This document shows positions 2,357 to 9,920 of a stretch of DNA of 64,000 nt, piece by piece. The notes under the pieces were generated by a model, which did no database searches, was not told the origin of the DNA, and saw only the letters and a list, made by a program, of their open reading frames with translations. The stretch spans positions 970,398 to 1,034,397 of the forward strand of contig NZ_FNQT01000001.1 of the NCBI RefSeq assembly GCF_900107665.1. Direction: 5' to 3'. The position numbers and the translations under genes are program-made. The DNA comes from Haloplanus vescus. GTDB taxonomy: Archaea; Halobacteriota; Halobacteria; Halobacteriales; Haloferacaceae. How positions within the stretch are numbered: position 1 is the first letter of the stretch; every line of letters begins with the position of its first letter.

Positions 2357-2500
2357 TCAGAACTGGCCGAGACCGGTCTGTCGCTGTCCGCTTTTCACTT
2401 CGTCCCACGACAGCCCGAGGGCCTCGATAATGCGCTCGATAGGGCCTTTGAGCGTCTTTTCGAGCATCTTGTCCCAGTCGATTTCGAATGTGTCTGGTTT
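2357..2500 (-). pseudogene. Displaced 3' end of a polB gene
   Basis: Reading the minus strand up to a TGA at 2357-2359 gives the last ~47 codons of a haloarchaeal family B DNA polymerase: KPDTFEIDWDKMLEKTLKGP, then ERIIEALGLSWDEV and the terminal QRQTGLGQF. It aligns residue for residue with the C-terminus of the intact polB at 3373-6126 but has no start and no upstream polymerase sequence. Base use is the G/C-rich type of the host. A 17-base stretch (2454-2470, GTCTTTTCGAGCATCTT) is identical to 3473-3489 in the intact gene. The likely explanation is that this is the original polB tail, displaced when foreign DNA entered the gene. Confidence 0.85.
2454..2470. repeat. 17-bp direct repeat shared with intact polB, possible attachment core
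   Basis: GTCTTTTCGAGCATCTT occurs here and at 3473-3489, in the same reading frame of the two polB tails (encoding KMLEKT). It could be the crossover site that bounds the AT-rich cassette, or simply the best conserved piece of two homologous tails. Flanking bases diverge quickly. Confidence 0.5.
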
Positions 2501-2507
2501 TAGTCGA

Positions 2508-2891
2508 CTAAAAGCGAGTTCTGATAGCATTTAGTAGATCATCTTCATCCCATAGAGCACTACGGATATTGTCGGTGTGAGTCAAACTCGACATGTTAAA
2601 TGTATTCGAGGGATATTCCCATAATTCAATTTCAATTTCCCAAAAATCATTGCTATTTGGAACTGTTCCTTCAGCTCTCGCACTATAATGTCGTTCTGGG
2701 CCCATATTCCGTTCGTTGACTTCAACTACCTCAAGCGGTACCGGGATCAACTGTGGCTCGTCATCCCATGGAAAGCTGAGCGGGAAAACAACCTCAGAAA
2801 TGGAAGAGGGATCAACGTGCCCACTTTGGGTTAGTACACTATATTCGTCATCACTTCTAATGACACCAATCACCCAGTCATCAGGTTCCAT
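2508..2891 (-). CDS. Uncharacterised protein of AT-rich polB-tail cassette
   Basis: A 127-residue acidic protein beginning MEPDDWVIGVIRSDDEYSVL. I recognise no family; it looks like a compact beta-rich soluble protein with no membrane segment or signal peptide. Codon use is clearly AT-richer than the neighbours (many AAT, ATT, TCA, AGA codons), a sign of recent transfer. It is divergently transcribed from the HTH gene at 2976 across an 84-base spacer, with a TATA-like element on the minus strand near 2913-2920 at the spacing of a leaderless start. Its stop falls about 8 bases before the displaced polB tail. Function is unknown; it may belong with the HTH protein as a small two-gene module. 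Confidence 0.75.
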   Translation of the reverse strand: MEPDDWVIGVIRSDDEYSVLTQSGHVDPSSISEVVFPLSFPWDDEPQLIPVPLEVVEVNERNMGPERHYSARAEGTVPNSNDFWEIEIELWEYPSNTFNMSSLTHTDNIRSALWDEDDLLNAIRTRF

Positions 2892-2910
2892 ATTGAATAC
2901 AACCCTGCCG

Positions 2911-2955
2911 TGTTTATAAGCCTGTTCCGGGCATTACACTACTTGATTTATTAAC
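2911..2955. promoter_or_regulatory. Divergent TATA-like elements of the cassette
   Basis: On the minus strand CTTATAAACA (complement of 2911-2920) lies about 25 bases upstream of the 2891 start. On the plus strand GATTTATTAAC (2945-2955) lies about 25 bases upstream of the 2976 start. Both fit haloarchaeal leaderless promoters, so the two cassette genes appear to be expressed from a shared divergent region. Confidence 0.55.
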
Positions 2956-2975
2956 TCCGGCACACAAATACGATA

Positions 2976-3371
2976 ATGATGTCGAGTCTAAGTGATGACA
3001 GATATGCGACACAGAGAGGCCGCTATTTGGCCAAAACTACCGAACTTCGAAAACCCGAGGCAAAAGCAGTCGCATATGCAGAAAAAGGTTTCTCTTCAAA
3101 CGGTATTTCTAAGAAATTGAACGTCTCCGAATCAACCGTCAAGGGATATATGCGGAGAGCTATGGCACTATACGGTTTGGAGATCATGGAAACAAATCTT
3201 CCCAGCGAAGAACCTCCCGACTACGAGAAAGTTAGACCGGAATACTACAACAAATTAAACGACACAGATCGAGAAATATGGATAGAGTATGTGCGAAGGC
3301 ACAGCGATAAGCTCCCACAGGAATGGATGCATGAGATACTAGAATCTGCAGATATGGACGAATCTGCCTAA
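2976..3371 (+). CDS. Helix-turn-helix protein of AT-rich cassette
   Basis: 131 residues. Residues about 22-65 (ELRKPEAKAVAYAEKGFSSN then GISKKLNVSESTVKGYMRRA) form a LuxR/sigma-70 region-4-like helix-turn-helix, a type common in haloarchaeal mobile elements. The rest (EYYNKLNDTDREIWIEYVRR) is helical and unassigned. Starts at 2976 or 2979 (ATGATG) are equally possible. AT-rich codon use matches the divergent gene at 2508 and the polB tail, and differs from the host genes around. The stop is one base from the polB stop, convergent and very tightly packed. Probably a DNA-binding regulator of the cassette; target unknown. Confidence 0.8.
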   Translation: MMSSLSDDRYATQRGRYLAKTTELRKPEAKAVAYAEKGFSSNGISKKLNVSESTVKGYMRRAMALYGLEIMETNLPSEEPPDYEKVRPEYYNKLNDTDREIWIEYVRRHSDKLPQEWMHEILESADMDESA

Positions 3372-3372
3372 T

Positions 3373-6126
3373 TCACATATAATGGCCTAAGCCAGTCTGC
3401 TGCTCTCCGTCAACCAGATGTTCCCACGAAATGCCGAGACTCTCTGTGATTCGGGATATCGGCCCCTCAAGTGTCTTTTCGAGCATCTTCTGATAGTCAA
3501 TTTCGAACGATTCAGGGACTTGATCAGGATATTCAAAACAGATAATATCGGGATTTCGCTTGAATTCGCGATAATCAGCATCTGAAACTATGGATGAATT
3601 CTCCCGCTCAACTATTTCGAAGAATTGGGGAAGAACACGCTCCAAATAGAGGTGTCGCGGTTTCGATCCACGGTCAAAATTCGTATTGAGAACAGCATTT
3701 GCGTATTTCGCCCCACGGATGTGAGCAGAAGGACTATCATATTCATCCAATCGCTGGCCGATACCACCGGGAATGCCGATCCGTTCCGCATCTATTTTCT
3801 GTTCCTGAAATCGGTTGATGATGCCTTCCAAGTACTTTTCAACCTCATCAACAGCATCCTCCTTCACGATCATCTCGATGACCTGTCGCTGGACCTCCTT
3901 CGTTATCGGCGCGATGTCCGAGCGCTTGTACTCGAAGCCCGTGATGTCGATATCGTCGACGTGTTTGCCCTCCTTCCAGACGATGTGGCCCGCGTAGCGT
4001 TTCTTCTTGCCCGCCTGGAAGAACCGCCGGTAGAGCTTCTCGAACTCGATTTGGAAGCGGTGGTCGTGGGCGTTGAGTTCCTCCAACGCGAACTCGTCGT
4101 AGGAGTCGTTGATGGATTCCTCGAGTTCGTAGCCCGTCTCGATGGCACCCGCAATCTGTCGAAGCCCCGACTCGCTCATCTCGGGGTGGGATTCGCGAAC
4201 CTCGTCGGGTACCTCGTCGACAGCCACGTCATCCCCGAGTTCGAGCATGACGCTGTCGGTGTCGCCGTAGGCCACCTCGTAACCCACGTCGTTGGCGGCG
4301 GTCTGGGTGTGTTCGATGACGTCCCGCCCCGTCGCGGTGACGGCGGCGCCCATCTCCCGGTCGTAGAGGCGGAAGCGGTCCCAGCCCAGGACGCCGTAGA
4401 GCGAGTTCATGATGACCTTCACCGCCTGCTGTTCTCGGTCGTACTGCTCGTAGGCCTGACTCCCGGGTTCGTTGTCGTTGCGCTCGGCCTTCTTCTGTTC
4501 GCGCTCTTTCAGCAACTCGTCGACCATCTCCCGGATGACGCCGTCCGGTTCCTTCTGGAAGTGGGTGCCGTTGGGCGCGCGGTAGGTGTCGCCGTCGTAC
4601 GCCTCGGGGTCGACTTTCGTCTCCGGCGACGCGTTGATGGTCACCATGCACATCGGATACAGCGACTTCAGGTCGAGGACGCTCACGTTCTCCTTGATGC
4701 CCGTGATGGGGTCGAACACCGCACCGCCCTCGTAGTCCTCGGCGTCGGCCCGCCCCTTCGAGGGCAGGGCGAAGTTCCCGTGGACCTTGTGCAGGACGTA
4801 CACGTCAACGGCGTCACCGGGCGTCGGGGCGTCCTCCAGTTTACACCCGACGAACGTCCGCACCTCGTCCCAGAAGGAGATGATGTCGCGCTTGCGGTCG
4901 AGTTCGACACAGAGTTCCACGTCGCGGAGGTTGTACTCCAGCAGACGCTGGGGGTCGTCCTCCCACAGGTCGCCGATGTCGCCCGTGTAGCGCTCCTTGC
5001 CCGCGCCGAGTTCCTGTTCGCCGACGGCGTCGAGCCGGTACGATTCAAGTTCAGTGAACTGGGTGCGCTTGTAGGCGTAAAGCAGGTCGAAGACGACGCG
5101 GCCCTTGATAGTCGGGCCACCCCAGTCGCTCCGCCACACCTCACCGATGCGTGAGAGGCGGTTGGGATTCAGGTCGCGGTCCACGTCCGGGCGCTTGCCG
5201 AGCACCTCGAGTCGGTCGATGAAGTAGGGCGCGTCGAAGTCCTCGAAGTTCCACCCCGTGAGCACGTCGGGGTCGGTGTCCTCGATGTAGGTGAGGAAGG
5301 CATCGAGCATGGCGGCCTCGGAGTCGAAGGCGCGGACTTCGGCGTCGACATCGCCTTCGAGTCCCTCGTACGCCGCGAGGTCGTCGGGGGTGACGCCCTC
5401 GCCCTCGGGCGCCTCGTAGAGCCACGTGATGTACTCGTCGCTCCCGGAGTCGTGACTGGTGAGACAGACGATTGGCTCCTCGCCGTCCTCGGGGAAACCG
5501 GAGCGGTCGTCGACTTCGATGTCGAACGTGTTCACGCGGAGGTCTGCCGTCGCCTCGACGGCCTGAATCTCGTCGTGTGGAATCTGAATCGACCCACTCT
5601 CCAGTCGCCGGACGGGGACGCGAACGCCACTCCCAATGTCCTTGTCGATGAGGAGGCGGTTCGGGAAGAGGATGTCCGCCTCGAAGTGGTCGAACTCGTC
5701 GCGAATCTGCCCCACGTCGCGTGGCGTCTGGGTACAGATTTTCGTCAGCTCCTCGCCGCGGATGCTCTCGTAGCCCGTCTCCGTGCGCGTGATTACGTCC
5801 CGGTCGAGGTCGTCGTCGTCGAGACTCGCTGTCGGCGCGTAGAAGTACGGTTCGAACCCGAGAACGCGGACGTGTTCCGCCGTCCCGTCCGGAGTCCGAC
5901 CGAACAGGTGGACGACGGGGTACTCCTCGGAACCCTGCCCTTCGACGGTGTAGTCGACCTGCGTGACCGTGAGGTCGACCGTCCCATCGGGGTCGGGGAA
6001 CTTCAGCTCCGAGGCGTCGATAACCTCACTGACCGCCTGTGACGCGTCGCCCGCGACGGCGACCGCCTCCGCCTCGGGGCGGTCGTCCGCCGCCCCCGAG
6101 AACTGCGAGAGGTCCGCCTGAGTCAT
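3373..6126 (-). CDS. polB: Family B DNA polymerase, with a compositionally foreign C-terminal ~160 residues
   Basis: A 917-residue replicative/repair polymerase. Exonuclease motifs are FDIEVD (~201), NFEDFD (~293) and YNLRD (~398). Polymerase motifs are A DLKSLYP (~485), B KVIMNSLYG (~570) and C YGDTDS (~620). All catalytic acids are present and none of the usual intein sites is interrupted. The start at 6126 (MTQADLSQFSGAADD) is preferred; the reading frame stays open 100 codons upstream, but that part is not polymerase-like. From about base 3860 to the stop (residues ~756-917) codon use switches abruptly to AT-rich, like the adjacent cassette, while upstream it is host-like. The gene therefore looks chimeric, its 3' end replaced by an incoming allele. 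The product should be active. Confidence 0.96.
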   Translation of the reverse strand: MTQADLSQFSGAADDRPEAEAVAVAGDASQAVSEVIDASELKFPDPDGTVDLTVTQVDYTVEGQGSEEYPVVHLFGRTPDGTAEHVRVLGFEPYFYAPTASLDDDDLDRDVITRTETGYESIRGEELTKICTQTPRDVGQIRDEFDHFEADILFPNRLLIDKDIGSGVRVPVRRLESGSIQIPHDEIQAVEATADLRVNTFDIEVDDRSGFPEDGEEPIVCLTSHDSGSDEYITWLYEAPEGEGVTPDDLAAYEGLEGDVDAEVRAFDSEAAMLDAFLTYIEDTDPDVLTGWNFEDFDAPYFIDRLEVLGKRPDVDRDLNPNRLSRIGEVWRSDWGGPTIKGRVVFDLLYAYKRTQFTELESYRLDAVGEQELGAGKERYTGDIGDLWEDDPQRLLEYNLRDVELCVELDRKRDIISFWDEVRTFVGCKLEDAPTPGDAVDVYVLHKVHGNFALPSKGRADAEDYEGGAVFDPITGIKENVSVLDLKSLYPMCMVTINASPETKVDPEAYDGDTYRAPNGTHFQKEPDGVIREMVDELLKEREQKKAERNDNEPGSQAYEQYDREQQAVKVIMNSLYGVLGWDRFRLYDREMGAAVTATGRDVIEHTQTAANDVGYEVAYGDTDSVMLELGDDVAVDEVPDEVRESHPEMSESGLRQIAGAIETGYELEESINDSYDEFALEELNAHDHRFQIEFEKLYRRFFQAGKKKRYAGHIVWKEGKHVDDIDITGFEYKRSDIAPITKEVQRQVIEMIVKEDAVDEVEKYLEGIINRFQEQKIDAERIGIPGGIGQRLDEYDSPSAHIRGAKYANAVLNTNFDRGSKPRHLYLERVLPQFFEIVERENSSIVSDADYREFKRNPDIICFEYPDQVPESFEIDYQKMLEKTLEGPISRITESLGISWEHLVDGEQQTGLGHYM

Positions 6127-6232
6127 GGCGCTTCCTTCGGCGCACCCCGGTAAAAACCCCGCCACTCCGACCGCGAAGCGCTGCCCCGACGGCAAGACAT
6201 ATACCGTGTGACCTACTACCACATTTCTGACG

Positions 6233-6412
6233 ATGTCCGACCACGTCGACGCAAGCCGGTGGGACAGTACGGACGCCGAGCGTCCGGAGCACGACGGTAT
6301 CGACACCGTCGAGGCGTACGAAGTCGAGGACGGGACGGTACTGTACGACGCGGAGAACCCGCTCGCGTGGGTGGAGTCGTCCGCCGCCGTGTCGATTCGC
6401 GACTTGGCGTAG
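6233..6412 (+). CDS. Small acidic conserved haloarchaeal protein
   Basis: 59 residues, MSDHVDASRWDSTDAERPEH at the N-terminus, then EAYEVEDGTVLYDAENPLAW and a short tail. It resembles small haloarchaeal proteins of unknown function in which a single beta-hairpin carries the motif VLYDxENPxAW. No membrane segment. A TATA-like ACATATACC lies near 6197-6205, about 30 bases upstream. It is divergent from polB and shares its intergenic region. Function unknown. Confidence 0.7.
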   Translation: MSDHVDASRWDSTDAERPEHDGIDTVEAYEVEDGTVLYDAENPLAWVESSAAVSIRDLA

Positions 6413-6461
6413 TAGCGGCGCAACACGAATCCTTTTGCCGTCGCGTCGGCTCTCCCCGAGC

Positions 6462-6782
6462 GTGCTCGACCCGTTCGACGAGCCCGACGACACCGACGCG
6501 ACGCCGCAGTTGGGCAACCCCGAACACGACCTGCCCAAGACCCCCTCCGTCGACGTCGACGAGTCGGACGCCGACCCCGAGGTGAAGGAGACGTTCTGGC
6601 GGAGCGTCTTCCTCACGAACGTGGCCATCTTCGCGCTCACCGTCGGGCCGATGGTCGCGTACTTTCGTGGGTGGTGGACCGTCGGCGCCGCCGCTGCCGT
6701 ACTCGGCGCCATCATGCTGTTCCGTGTCTACCAACACTACCGTGCCTTCGAGCGACACCAAGACGACGAACGGAACGCCTAA
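6462..6782 (+). CDS. Small membrane protein, two TM segments
   Basis: 106 residues from a GTG at 6462. An acidic N-terminal half (LDPFDEPDDTDATPQ) is followed by two hydrophobic helices: SVFLTNVAIFALTVGPMVAY and WWTVGAAAAVLGAIMLFRVY. The tail is charged. Haloarchaeal small membrane protein of unknown function. GTG was chosen because protein-like sequence begins there; an ATG 27 bases upstream is the alternative. It lies 25 bases before the next gene and is probably cotranscribed with it. Confidence 0.7.
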   Translation: MLDPFDEPDDTDATPQLGNPEHDLPKTPSVDVDESDADPEVKETFWRSVFLTNVAIFALTVGPMVAYFRGWWTVGAAAAVLGAIMLFRVYQHYRAFERHQDDERNA

Positions 6783-6807
6783 CCGCTCGGCCCGGCTTCG
6801 AGCAGGC

Positions 6808-7236
6808 ATGCGAACCGTCCGCGACGAGGCGGGAGACCGCTACCTGCTCGTGAAACGCTCGTCGGAGTCGAGTCTCGTCCGCGACCCCGACACCGGAGAG
6901 GAGCGCTACCTGCCGAACGCCGACCTCACGGTGGATGACGAGACGGCGGCGCTCGAAACGGCCGCGAGCGCCGTTCCGGCCTCGGTCCGGCGCGTCCTCA
7001 CCGCGGCGCCGAACGACCGGGCGCTCGGTCTCCTCATCGAACTCGCCGACCGCGGCCCGCTGGCCGTGCGAACGCTCATCGATTCCTACGACCTCTGTGA
7101 GAGCGACTTGCACGGCCTGCTCGCGGAGTTTCGAGCCGCAGGGTTGGTCGAAGAAGCGCGCATCGCCGGCGAACGCGGCTACGACGCGACGGCGACGACC
7201 CGCGACGCCGTGACCCATCTGCGGGCCGACGACTAG
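6808..7236 (+). CDS. Winged-helix-like DNA-binding protein next to rad50
   Basis: 142 residues, MRTVRDEAGDRYLLVKRSSE at the start. Residues ~1-45 form a small beta module (LLVKRSSESSLVRDPDTGEE). Residues ~60-140 are a winged-helix fold (DRALGLLIELADRGPLAVRT, LLAEFRAAGLVEEARI, GYDATATTRDAVTHL). It runs convergently into rad50 with a 4-base overlap. Likely a transcriptional regulator; no target is visible. Confidence 0.75.
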   Translation: MRTVRDEAGDRYLLVKRSSESSLVRDPDTGEERYLPNADLTVDDETAALETAASAVPASVRRVLTAAPNDRALGLLIELADRGPLAVRTLIDSYDLCESDLHGLLAEFRAAGLVEEARIAGERGYDATATTRDAVTHLRADD

Positions 7237-9920
7237 TCGTCGGCCTCGGATTCGAGGTCGACCGCGCCGAGTGCGGCCGGGTCCGACCGTGACACCGTCG
7301 ACCGGTTGGTCCGGGAGTCTTTCTCGACGCTGACGAGGTCGTCGGCCGCGCCGACGAGTTCCTCGTCGTGGCTGACGATGACGATTTGGGCGACACCGAG
7401 GTCACGCATCTCCGTGACCAAGTCGACGAGCCGAGAGACGTGCCCCGAGTCGAGGAAGACGGTCGGTTCGTCGAGGATGAGCGGCGGCATGGGCGCCGCG
7501 CCGTCGATGCCCTCGGCCAGCAAGCGATAGATGGCACACCGCAGACTGAGGTTGAACAGGGCACGCTCCCCGCCCGACAGCTGCGTGGGGTCGAGTTCGC
7601 TCCCGTCTTTCTGTACGACCGAGAGCTCGTACTCCCCATTCAGTCGGAGGTGTGCGTACGCGTCGTTGCCGTAGACGAGGTCGAAGGTCTCGTTCAGGAG
7701 CCGTTCGAGCGTCTCGACGTTGCGCTGGCGGAGGTCCGCGCGCAGGTCGCCGTACATGGCCTCCAGTCGCGTCGCCTCGTCGTGGAGGTCGTCGAGTGCC
7801 TCGACACGCTCCGCGAGGGCATCACGCTCGTCGTGCAGCGATTCGAGCGCCTCGATTTCGCTTCGGACACCCCCAATTCGTGTCTGTAGCTCGTCCCGCC
7901 GTTCGGCCAGCGAGTCGAGTTCATCAGCGACATTCGACAGGTACTCGTCGGCCTCGGACTTGTTCGTCCGGGCCGCCTCGATGGCGTCCTCGTCGACCGC
8001 CGCCGCGAGGTCGTCGCGGCGCTCGCGTTTCTCCGACAGGCGCTCGCGGCGTTCGTCGTTCGTCTCCTCGATGCGCTCCGCTCGCTCGCTCAAGCGCTCG
8101 ATGTCGGCTTCGAGGTCGTCGACCTGCGCCAGACGTTTCTCGATGGCGTCGAGGCGTTCGCGCGCCGTCTCGACGGTCGACAGCTCCTCGGTCAACTCGT
8201 CGACGCGTGCCTCACACTCCTCGGCCTCCGCGCGTTTCTTCTCGGCGACCTCGCGGGTTTCGGCCGCCTGCTCGCGGAGCGAGTCCGCCTCGGCGTCGTA
8301 CTCGTCGGCCTCTTCGAGGTTCTCCTCGGCGTCGGCGCGTTTCTCCGCCGCTCGCTCGGCGAGTCGCTCACGCTCGGCGTCGAGTTCGTCCAGTCGGCGC
8401 TCGGCCTCGACGAGGTCGTCGAGCGTCTCGACTCGCTCGTCCAGTTCGGTCACGCGCTCCCGTGCCGCCGACAGTTCGCTCTCTAACTCGGCCACCCGCT
8501 CGCGGTCGTCTTCGGGGTCGGCGTGGGGCGCGCCGTCGACTGGCTGGCCGCACTCGGGGCACTTCCCGGCGTCGAGGAGGGCTTCCGCCTCGGCGACCCG
8601 GTCACGCGCCGACTCCAGTCGCGTCTCCAGTTCGGTCACGCGCTCGCGTGCCTCCGCGCGGCGCTCGCGACAGTCGGCCAAGTGGTCCGCCGCCTCGCCG
8701 CGGTCGACCGGCGCGGCGTCGAGGCGGGCGGTCAGGTCCTCCCGCTCCGAGTCGATTTCCGCGATGCGTTCCTCGCACTCGGTCACGGCGTCCTCGGCCG
8801 CCATCGCCGCCTCGCGGAGGTCCGCAGCCCGCGATTCCGCCTCGTCGGCGCGCTCGGCCAACTCGTCGGCCTTCTCGGCGAGGTTCGTCGCCTGATTCCG
8901 CAGGCCCGTCGCCGACGCCTTCGCGTCGGAACGCTCCTCGCGGAGACGCTCCTCGTGGTCGTCGATGTCGCGACGCCGCGTCTCGATGGCGTCGTCGGTC
9001 GCGGCCTCCAGTCCCGCCGCGTCGAGACGAGTGTCGATGTCGGCCTCCAACTCGGACATCTGGTCGCGCGCGTCACCGATGCGCTCGCGGACCTCCTCGC
9101 GCTCCGACTCGGCCTCGCGAATCGCCTCCTCCAACTCCGCGATGTCCGACTCGACGGCCTCCAAGTCGGCCCGCTTCTGCTCGAACTCCTCGAGCACCGA
9201 CTCCGCCTCCGTTTTCGTCTGCTCGGCTTTCTCGCGCTGGGCCTCGTAATGCTCTATCTGGTCGTCGATCTCGGTCAGCGACGACTCCAACTCGTCGAGC
9301 GTGGCGTAGAGATCCTGCTCCGCTTTCCGTTCGATCTGTGCCTCCACCTTCTGGAGCTCGCCCCGCTTCTCCGAGCGCACGTCCTCGATGCCGAGTCGCG
9401 CCTCGCCCGCCCGGTCGCGGTACTCCTCCAGTCGGCCGAGCTGCAGGAGATCGTCGATGACGTCCTGACGCTGGGCCGGCGAGGCGTTGATGAGTTGGTT
9501 TACCTCGCCCTGCCGGACGTACGCGCAGTTGACGAACGCCTCGGCGTCCATCCGGAGTAGGTCGACGACGAACGCCCGCACATCTCGCGCGCCCTCGACG
9601 GTCACGTCCGGGCCCTCCAGCACGCAGTCGGCGGTGGTCGTCCGCTCGCCCGAGGAACGGAGGCGTCGGTGGACGTGATAGGACGCGCCGGCGTGGGTGA
9701 AGTCGAGGTCGATTTCGGCCTCCGTCTCGCCGTTCGAAATCACGTCGTCCAGTGTCCCTTCGAGGGCCGTCGACCCGTAGAGCGCGAAGAAACACGCCTC
9801 CAAGAGCGACGACTTCCCACTCCCGTTGAGTCCGTGGATGACCGTCACGCCGTCGCGCAGTTCGAGGTCCGCGTCGGCGTAGGGGCGGAAGTTCCGCAGG
9901 CGGATGCGCTCGAACTTCAC
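7233..9920 (-). CDS. rad50: Rad50, DNA double-strand break repair ATPase
   Basis: 895-residue SMC-like ATPase. Walker A GLNGSGKSS (~30-38) in the N-lobe, a long heptad coiled coil on either side, a zinc hook CPECGQPV (~455), ABC signature QLSGGERALFNLSL (~780) and Walker B LILDEPTVFLD (~817) in the C-lobe. With Mre11 it forms the complex that senses, tethers and processes DNA ends. The start overlaps the mre11 stop by 4 bases, so the two are translationally coupled. It is the last gene of a unit that begins with the winged-helix gene at 11678. Length is normal for the archaeal family. Confidence 0.97.
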   Translation of the reverse strand: MKFERIRLRNFRPYADADLELRDGVTVIHGLNGSGKSSLLEACFFALYGSTALEGTLDDVISNGETEAEIDLDFTHAGASYHVHRRLRSSGERTTTADCVLEGPDVTVEGARDVRAFVVDLLRMDAEAFVNCAYVRQGEVNQLINASPAQRQDVIDDLLQLGRLEEYRDRAGEARLGIEDVRSEKRGELQKVEAQIERKAEQDLYATLDELESSLTEIDDQIEHYEAQREKAEQTKTEAESVLEEFEQKRADLEAVESDIAELEEAIREAESEREEVRERIGDARDQMSELEADIDTRLDAAGLEAATDDAIETRRRDIDDHEERLREERSDAKASATGLRNQATNLAEKADELAERADEAESRAADLREAAMAAEDAVTECEERIAEIDSEREDLTARLDAAPVDRGEAADHLADCRERRAEARERVTELETRLESARDRVAEAEALLDAGKCPECGQPVDGAPHADPEDDRERVAELESELSAARERVTELDERVETLDDLVEAERRLDELDAERERLAERAAEKRADAEENLEEADEYDAEADSLREQAAETREVAEKKRAEAEECEARVDELTEELSTVETARERLDAIEKRLAQVDDLEADIERLSERAERIEETNDERRERLSEKRERRDDLAAAVDEDAIEAARTNKSEADEYLSNVADELDSLAERRDELQTRIGGVRSEIEALESLHDERDALAERVEALDDLHDEATRLEAMYGDLRADLRQRNVETLERLLNETFDLVYGNDAYAHLRLNGEYELSVVQKDGSELDPTQLSGGERALFNLSLRCAIYRLLAEGIDGAAPMPPLILDEPTVFLDSGHVSRLVDLVTEMRDLGVAQIVIVSHDEELVGAADDLVSVEKDSRTNRSTVSRSDPAALGAVDLESEADD

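Follow-up and report, generated by a model that had tools for sequence, protein, structure and literature searches.

Gene order and borders between polB and sufC

The window, a stretch of 64,000 nucleotides, is haloarchaeal chromosomal DNA with a GC content of 66 % across its length. Its left end, in plus-strand coordinates, carries sufB and sufC, both encoded on the minus strand; next come the feature described here and polB, the gene of the replicative family-B polymerase (minus strand). Two small genes and a second polB end lie between sufC and the stop codon of the full-length polB at 3373-3375. The HTH gene (2976 to 3371, plus strand, 131 amino acids) is convergent to polB, and orfA (2508 to 2891, minus strand, 127 amino acids) is divergent from the HTH gene. 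The 84-bp intergenic region of the divergent pair (2892 to 2975) presumably contains the promoters of both genes. Behind orfA, about 1 kb from the polB stop, lies a displaced 3' end of host-type polB (2357 to 2497, minus strand, 43-47 codons), which runs from FEIDWDKMLEKT to ...GLGQF and the stop codon, the last residues being QRQTGLGQF. It is included in a 57-amino-acid open frame (2357 to 2530, minus strand) that overlaps the end of orfA; this frame is probably incidental, since the second copy of the arrangement described below has no counterpart of its start codon.

In all 11 same-genus genomes the polB-sufC junction aligns colinearly and without a break with the displaced tail, the adjoining intergenic DNA and the start of sufC, at a nucleotide identity of 80-84 %. 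The preliminary description had recognised a host-like polB tail in this place, and on its sequence the stretch 2357 to 2497 is the original tail of the host gene. In the relatives polB ends in the host-type tail immediately before sufC, which is the empty site expected for unoccupied strains. A duplicated tail in relatives lacking the two small genes was not found. Parts of an upstream second polymerase were not present elsewhere in the genome, and the reading of the displaced tail as a piece of a divergent second polymerase gene was rejected. The tail differs from those of the genus mates by 9-16 silent and 0-4 replacement codon differences; as these differences are almost entirely silent, the insertions themselves look young.

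The full-length polB is not uniform. In a codon-by-codon comparison with the genus mates, nucleotide identity to the genus consensus was 95.8 % up to position ~3868 and 57.9 % beyond. The change-point lies 164 codons before the stop, within an interval of about 5 nt, and is supported by a gain in lnL of 73, whereas 500 shuffles gave no more than 9.2; the same analysis of polB from control relatives yielded no such point. At this break the GC content drops from 65 % to 46 %. The entire foreign block, composed of the polB 3' end, the HTH gene and orfA, therewith extends from ~2498 to ~3868 (~1.37 kb, 1,371 bp) and has 44 % GC compared with 65 % in the polB core; host homology resumes at 2497/2488. 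Its polB segment (3373 to 3868, minus strand, 164 codons and the stop codon) is in frame with the host core and comprises, by homology, the C-terminal thumb region and a PIP-like end, QTGLGHYM. The host part (3869 to 6126, minus strand, the start codon being an estimate) holds the 5' region including the catalytic YGDTDS motif. As the positions from 3490 to ~3868 are already foreign, the polB gene that had appeared intact is a hybrid of a host core and a foreign end.

A foreign part of 164 codons faces a remnant of 43-47 codons, hence about 121 host codons that lay between the two breaks were lost. They are absent from the genome, in which only two matches to the polB tail exist. The event is a substitution and not a mere insertion, and simple excision cannot restore polB or the empty site.

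An exact 17-bp stretch occurs twice, at 2454 to 2470 in the displaced tail and at 3473 to 3489 inside the foreign polB segment, and had been regarded as the boundary of a cassette of about 1 kb. The repetition itself is correct. Both copies encode KMLEKT, and the foreign DNA begins ~380 bp further inside polB than the second copy, at ~3868, so that a length of 1 kb is too short for the block. In 57 cassette-free haloarchaeal polB genes the 17-mer was present exactly in 7 and with one mismatch in 21 (28 of 57 within one base). Being this common in genes without the cassette, the repeat marks no recombination core; as att core or boundary it was rejected in favour of a conserved coding sequence.

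The polB gene of the window (3373-6426) looks intein-free, with an open frame of 1,079 amino acids. Frames of 1,341-2,622 amino acids in ten of the eleven other same-genus genomes suggest inteins, and the eleventh, a draft genome, has a frame of 1,126 amino acids.

A second copy in another family

Among 391 genomes sampled from the class, the HTH gene and orfA occurred together in only one other genome, G194, which belongs to another family. Here too, polB and sufC flank the pair, and order and orientation match those in the window. The G194 block has 1,354 bp, a GC content of 46 % and a divergent spacer of 104 bp. The change-point in its polB is situated 145 codons before the stop, where the identity to its genus mates falls from 92.8 % to 66.1 %, and a host-type polB remnant of 33 codons follows orfA. 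Thus, in both genomes a foreign three-part unit, consisting of a polB 3' end of ~145-164 codons, a convergent HTH gene and a divergent orfA, took the place of the host polB end, of which a remnant stayed behind before sufC. With the same unit at the same locus in a genome of another family, it looks like a rare travelling module and not like a one-off accident.

The HTH gene was absent from all genus mates, 11 of 11 for the window and 17 of 17 for G194. Searches of the window's whole family, the family of G194 and two more families revealed no further copy of the module at polB. A displaced tail beside polB was confined to the window and G194 when those of the 391 class genomes with more than one polB-tail match were re-listed, a procedure that could miss very short remnants; the other multiple matches were other polB genes or fragments. 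Two frames of 132-140 amino acids on small contigs (G081:C4:45093-45350 and G337:C6:11773-12033) match the middle of the polB tail and are possibly fragments of plasmid polymerases.

The borders of the two copies are not the same. The left borders are 19 codons apart with non-overlapping intervals, and the right borders differ by ~11 codons; the latter difference carries less weight, because a remnant without use may erode. Both left borders are at or just behind the most conserved stretch of polB, and the right borders fall into the conserved tail.

Between the window and G194 the amino acid identity is 59 % for the foreign polB tail, 64 % for the HTH protein and 49 % for OrfA. The foreign tails were sisters in the tree (UFBoot 89, SH-aLRT 87), which is limited by the shortness of the tail (164 residues) and its long branch; with the protein alone, a grouping of the window tail with its own genus was not rejected by the AU test (p-AU 0.29). 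For the foreign origin of the polB end we rely on the nucleotide change-point and on base composition. In all three parts the third codon positions are saturated (34-37 % identical), with the first and second positions conserved (57-80 %). The simplest reading of this pattern is that tail, HTH gene and orfA travelled and diverged together under purifying selection.

The two cassette genes and the search for a source

The HTH protein has a helix-turn-helix of the LuxR type (Pfam GerE, 7e-6, better than the curated cut-off). Its predicted model is all-helical and confident (pLDDT 90), and a structure search with it returned only partial LuxR/MarR-like matches (best E 0.02). By sequence it groups with HTH proteins of haloarchaeal plasmids (36-52 % identity), one of them adjoining ParA. 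Its probable role is the regulation of the divergent orfA. The HTH domain is also found as the N-terminal part of a protein of ~300 amino acids that is encoded by the first gene on haloarchaeal plasmids or contigs of 6-7 kb, such as plasmid I of Haloquadratum walsbyi (L100, 7,045 bp) and the contigs C2 and C4 of G016 (about 6 kb). For OrfA a beta-rich model was predicted (pLDDT 86). The protein had no match in family profile searches, and fold searches against PDB and viral models gave nothing significant (best Foldseek E 0.08, best VIA-align Z 5.3).

The preliminary description had noted no integrase, and this was borne out: the HTH gene and orfA are the only genes between polB and the remnant in the window and in G194, and neither locus has a recombinase there. 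Family searches recognised no homing nuclease domain in the HTH protein or OrfA, and the PADLOC defence models gave no match at E<=0.1 for either. As regards casposons, the foreign block contains neither Cas1 nor a complete polymerase gene. Distant homologues of both genes have other neighbours. A homologue of orfA sits directly after a tyrosine recombinase (L051), homologues of the HTH gene are found near tyrosine recombinases (L099/L056 and L055) and next to ParA (L053), and distant orfA homologues occur near restriction or candidate-defence genes, namely an HNH type-IV-like nuclease (L051) and PDC-M57B (L052). The first of these islands (L051, G141:C2:380000-391000, 3924-8553) comprises the orfA homologue, the tyrosine recombinase, the HNH type-IV-like nuclease and a GIY-YIG protein; the second (L052, in G313, 5163-7431) has its distant orfA homologue near PDC-M57B. 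Common to both is a protein of ~200 amino acids (L051:6948-7595 and L052:6829-7431), alike by eye and lacking a Pfam match.

Phage, plasmid and viral collections contained no donor, free form or transfer intermediate. The HTH protein had no match in phages, and peptide-pattern scans, a method that overlooks divergent relatives, found it neither in IMG/VR nor in GTDB 220 contigs; four plasmid records matched, the best with 48 % identity, and no polB end was seen beside the plasmid HTH proteins. For orfA no match was obtained in phages, plasmids or IMG/VR, the latter again by a peptide-pattern scan that misses divergent relatives. The polB tails of viruses and plasmids are much less closely related (25-47 %). 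In GTDB contigs a scan for polB tails retrieved 56 loci, mostly of methanogens apart from six related to Halobacteria, and these six on inspection had no cassette and no second polB tail. A larger element with a tyrosine recombinase integrated in polB, which had been suggested as a search target, did not turn up.

Probable origin and spread of the polB-end module

With a probability of roughly 0.55, we consider the block an old, selectively maintained and horizontally moving polB-end module that was last spread by homologous recombination. The host would tolerate the module since the polB segment that it brings makes the essential gene complete again. In the last transfers, incoming DNA with the module already in place may have been exchanged by homologous recombination or gene conversion; the left crossover would lie in or just after a highly conserved part of polB (FEYKRSDIAPITK..VQ..VIEMIV), and that on the right in or next to the polB tail. 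Crossovers within conserved polB stretches would lead to module borders that differ between genomes, and the observed borders fit such a homologous exchange. Gene conversion in Haloferax is efficient, works between distant species and has kilobase tracts (PMC8223754). It counts against this explanation that only two occupied genomes are known, that no donor, free form or transfer intermediate turned up in the phage, plasmid and viral collections, that recombination at the right border requires a hypothetical donor in which a polB tail already followed orfA, and that the tree of the tail is weak. An intein-induced break as trigger is speculation, and the YGDTDS intein site lies apart from the borders. 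The first entry could have occurred with an integrase-borne plasmid element.

Phage 21 in the icd gene of E. coli shows the same layout as prophage e14, a substitute 3' end and a remnant. The foreign e14 DNA likewise provides a central gene with a new 3' end and leaves a short remnant, the 163-bp icd' (PMC6379469). The preliminary description had proposed an element of this kind at the 3' end of polB. Its proposal stands insofar as foreign DNA supplies the new end and displaces the old one; integration at a 17-bp core is not supported, as the borders differ in G194 and host sequence was lost. The e14 element has 15 kb and matching attL and attR, and its excision restores icd. The polB module differs by its length of 1.37 kb, the lack of a recombinase and of matching borders, and the loss of ~121 host codons. 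An in-frame substitute 3' end is provided and, in the window as in G194, the original end is displaced to the far border, but three defining features, an identical att core, an own recombinase and an excision that restores the empty site, are missing; for this reason we do not class the module as a 3'-end element, although it acts like one by providing a gene end.

A true site-specific integrative element of the e14/icd kind would have been inserted by an integrase and supplied the new 3' end, and a later loss would have removed the integrase genes together with some of the displaced tail; alternatively, it would be a small satellite that used an integrase in trans. Such an origin is possible, as distant homologues of both cassette genes occur near tyrosine recombinases, and the ParA neighbour and the overall layout (PMC6379469) point in the same direction. 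Archaeal elements are also known to use the 3'-distal parts of protein genes (PMC6563490). We nevertheless regard this explanation as unlikely. No core is common to both borders, the 17-bp repeat being conserved coding sequence, and the displaced host tail falls short of the foreign one by 121 codons. With a fixed attachment site the borders should be identical, and those of the window and G194 differ; moreover, two copies that contain just these two genes do not look like the outcome of independent decay.

Other archaeal elements, among them thaumarchaeal proviruses, integrative and conjugative elements (ICEs) and the casposons in ef-2, resemble the module in the use of the 3' end of a housekeeping gene (PMC6563490). 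Those elements encode an integrase or Cas1 and show short att sites or target duplications, and no integration at the polB 3' end was reported in the literature searched. Haloarchaeal polB inteins invade the same gene, and inteins spread by gene conversion in haloarchaea (PMC3024317). Inteins are in frame, are spliced out and encode a homing endonuclease, whereas the polB module replaces the gene end and has no recognisable nuclease.

A selfish or defensive polymerase allele seems improbable to us. In this case replication, be it the cell's own or that of a virus, would be acted on by OrfA, the HTH protein or both, the divergent polB end would be the insensitive target, and the parts would have to move jointly. 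Such an allele would account for three parts that stay joined across families and are all under purifying selection, and two distant orfA homologues are near restriction or candidate-defence genes. Physical linkage, however, suffices for co-travel, as any unit landing in this place must bring a polB end; no defence model matches the HTH protein or OrfA, and the link of OrfA to PolB is hypothetical. Slightly more doubtful still is the specific version in which the two proteins would act against replication with the ordinary polB end, the divergent end would confer resistance, and the allele would spread by gene conversion without an own recombinase. That nothing mobile is involved, and that the block arose by rearrangement at the locus, represents a divergent second polymerase gene or is an artefact of assembly or contamination, is very improbable despite an assembly of 10 contigs with 3.7 % estimated contamination: the arrangement recurs in G194, an independent genome from a different family, the remnant follows the genus locus colinearly, the block is embedded in a contig of 1.4 Mb and reads in frame with polB, and there is no upstream second polymerase.

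Elements that take over the end of an essential gene are known, normally with an integrase and a clean, reversible join. Here, a recombinase-less unit of 1.4 kb irreversibly swaps the C-terminal part of the replicative polymerase in two distant haloarchaea. If the module spreads by homologous recombination alone, small genes would have an uncomplicated means of travelling with an essential gene, and the function of a polymerase with swapped ends would become directly testable.
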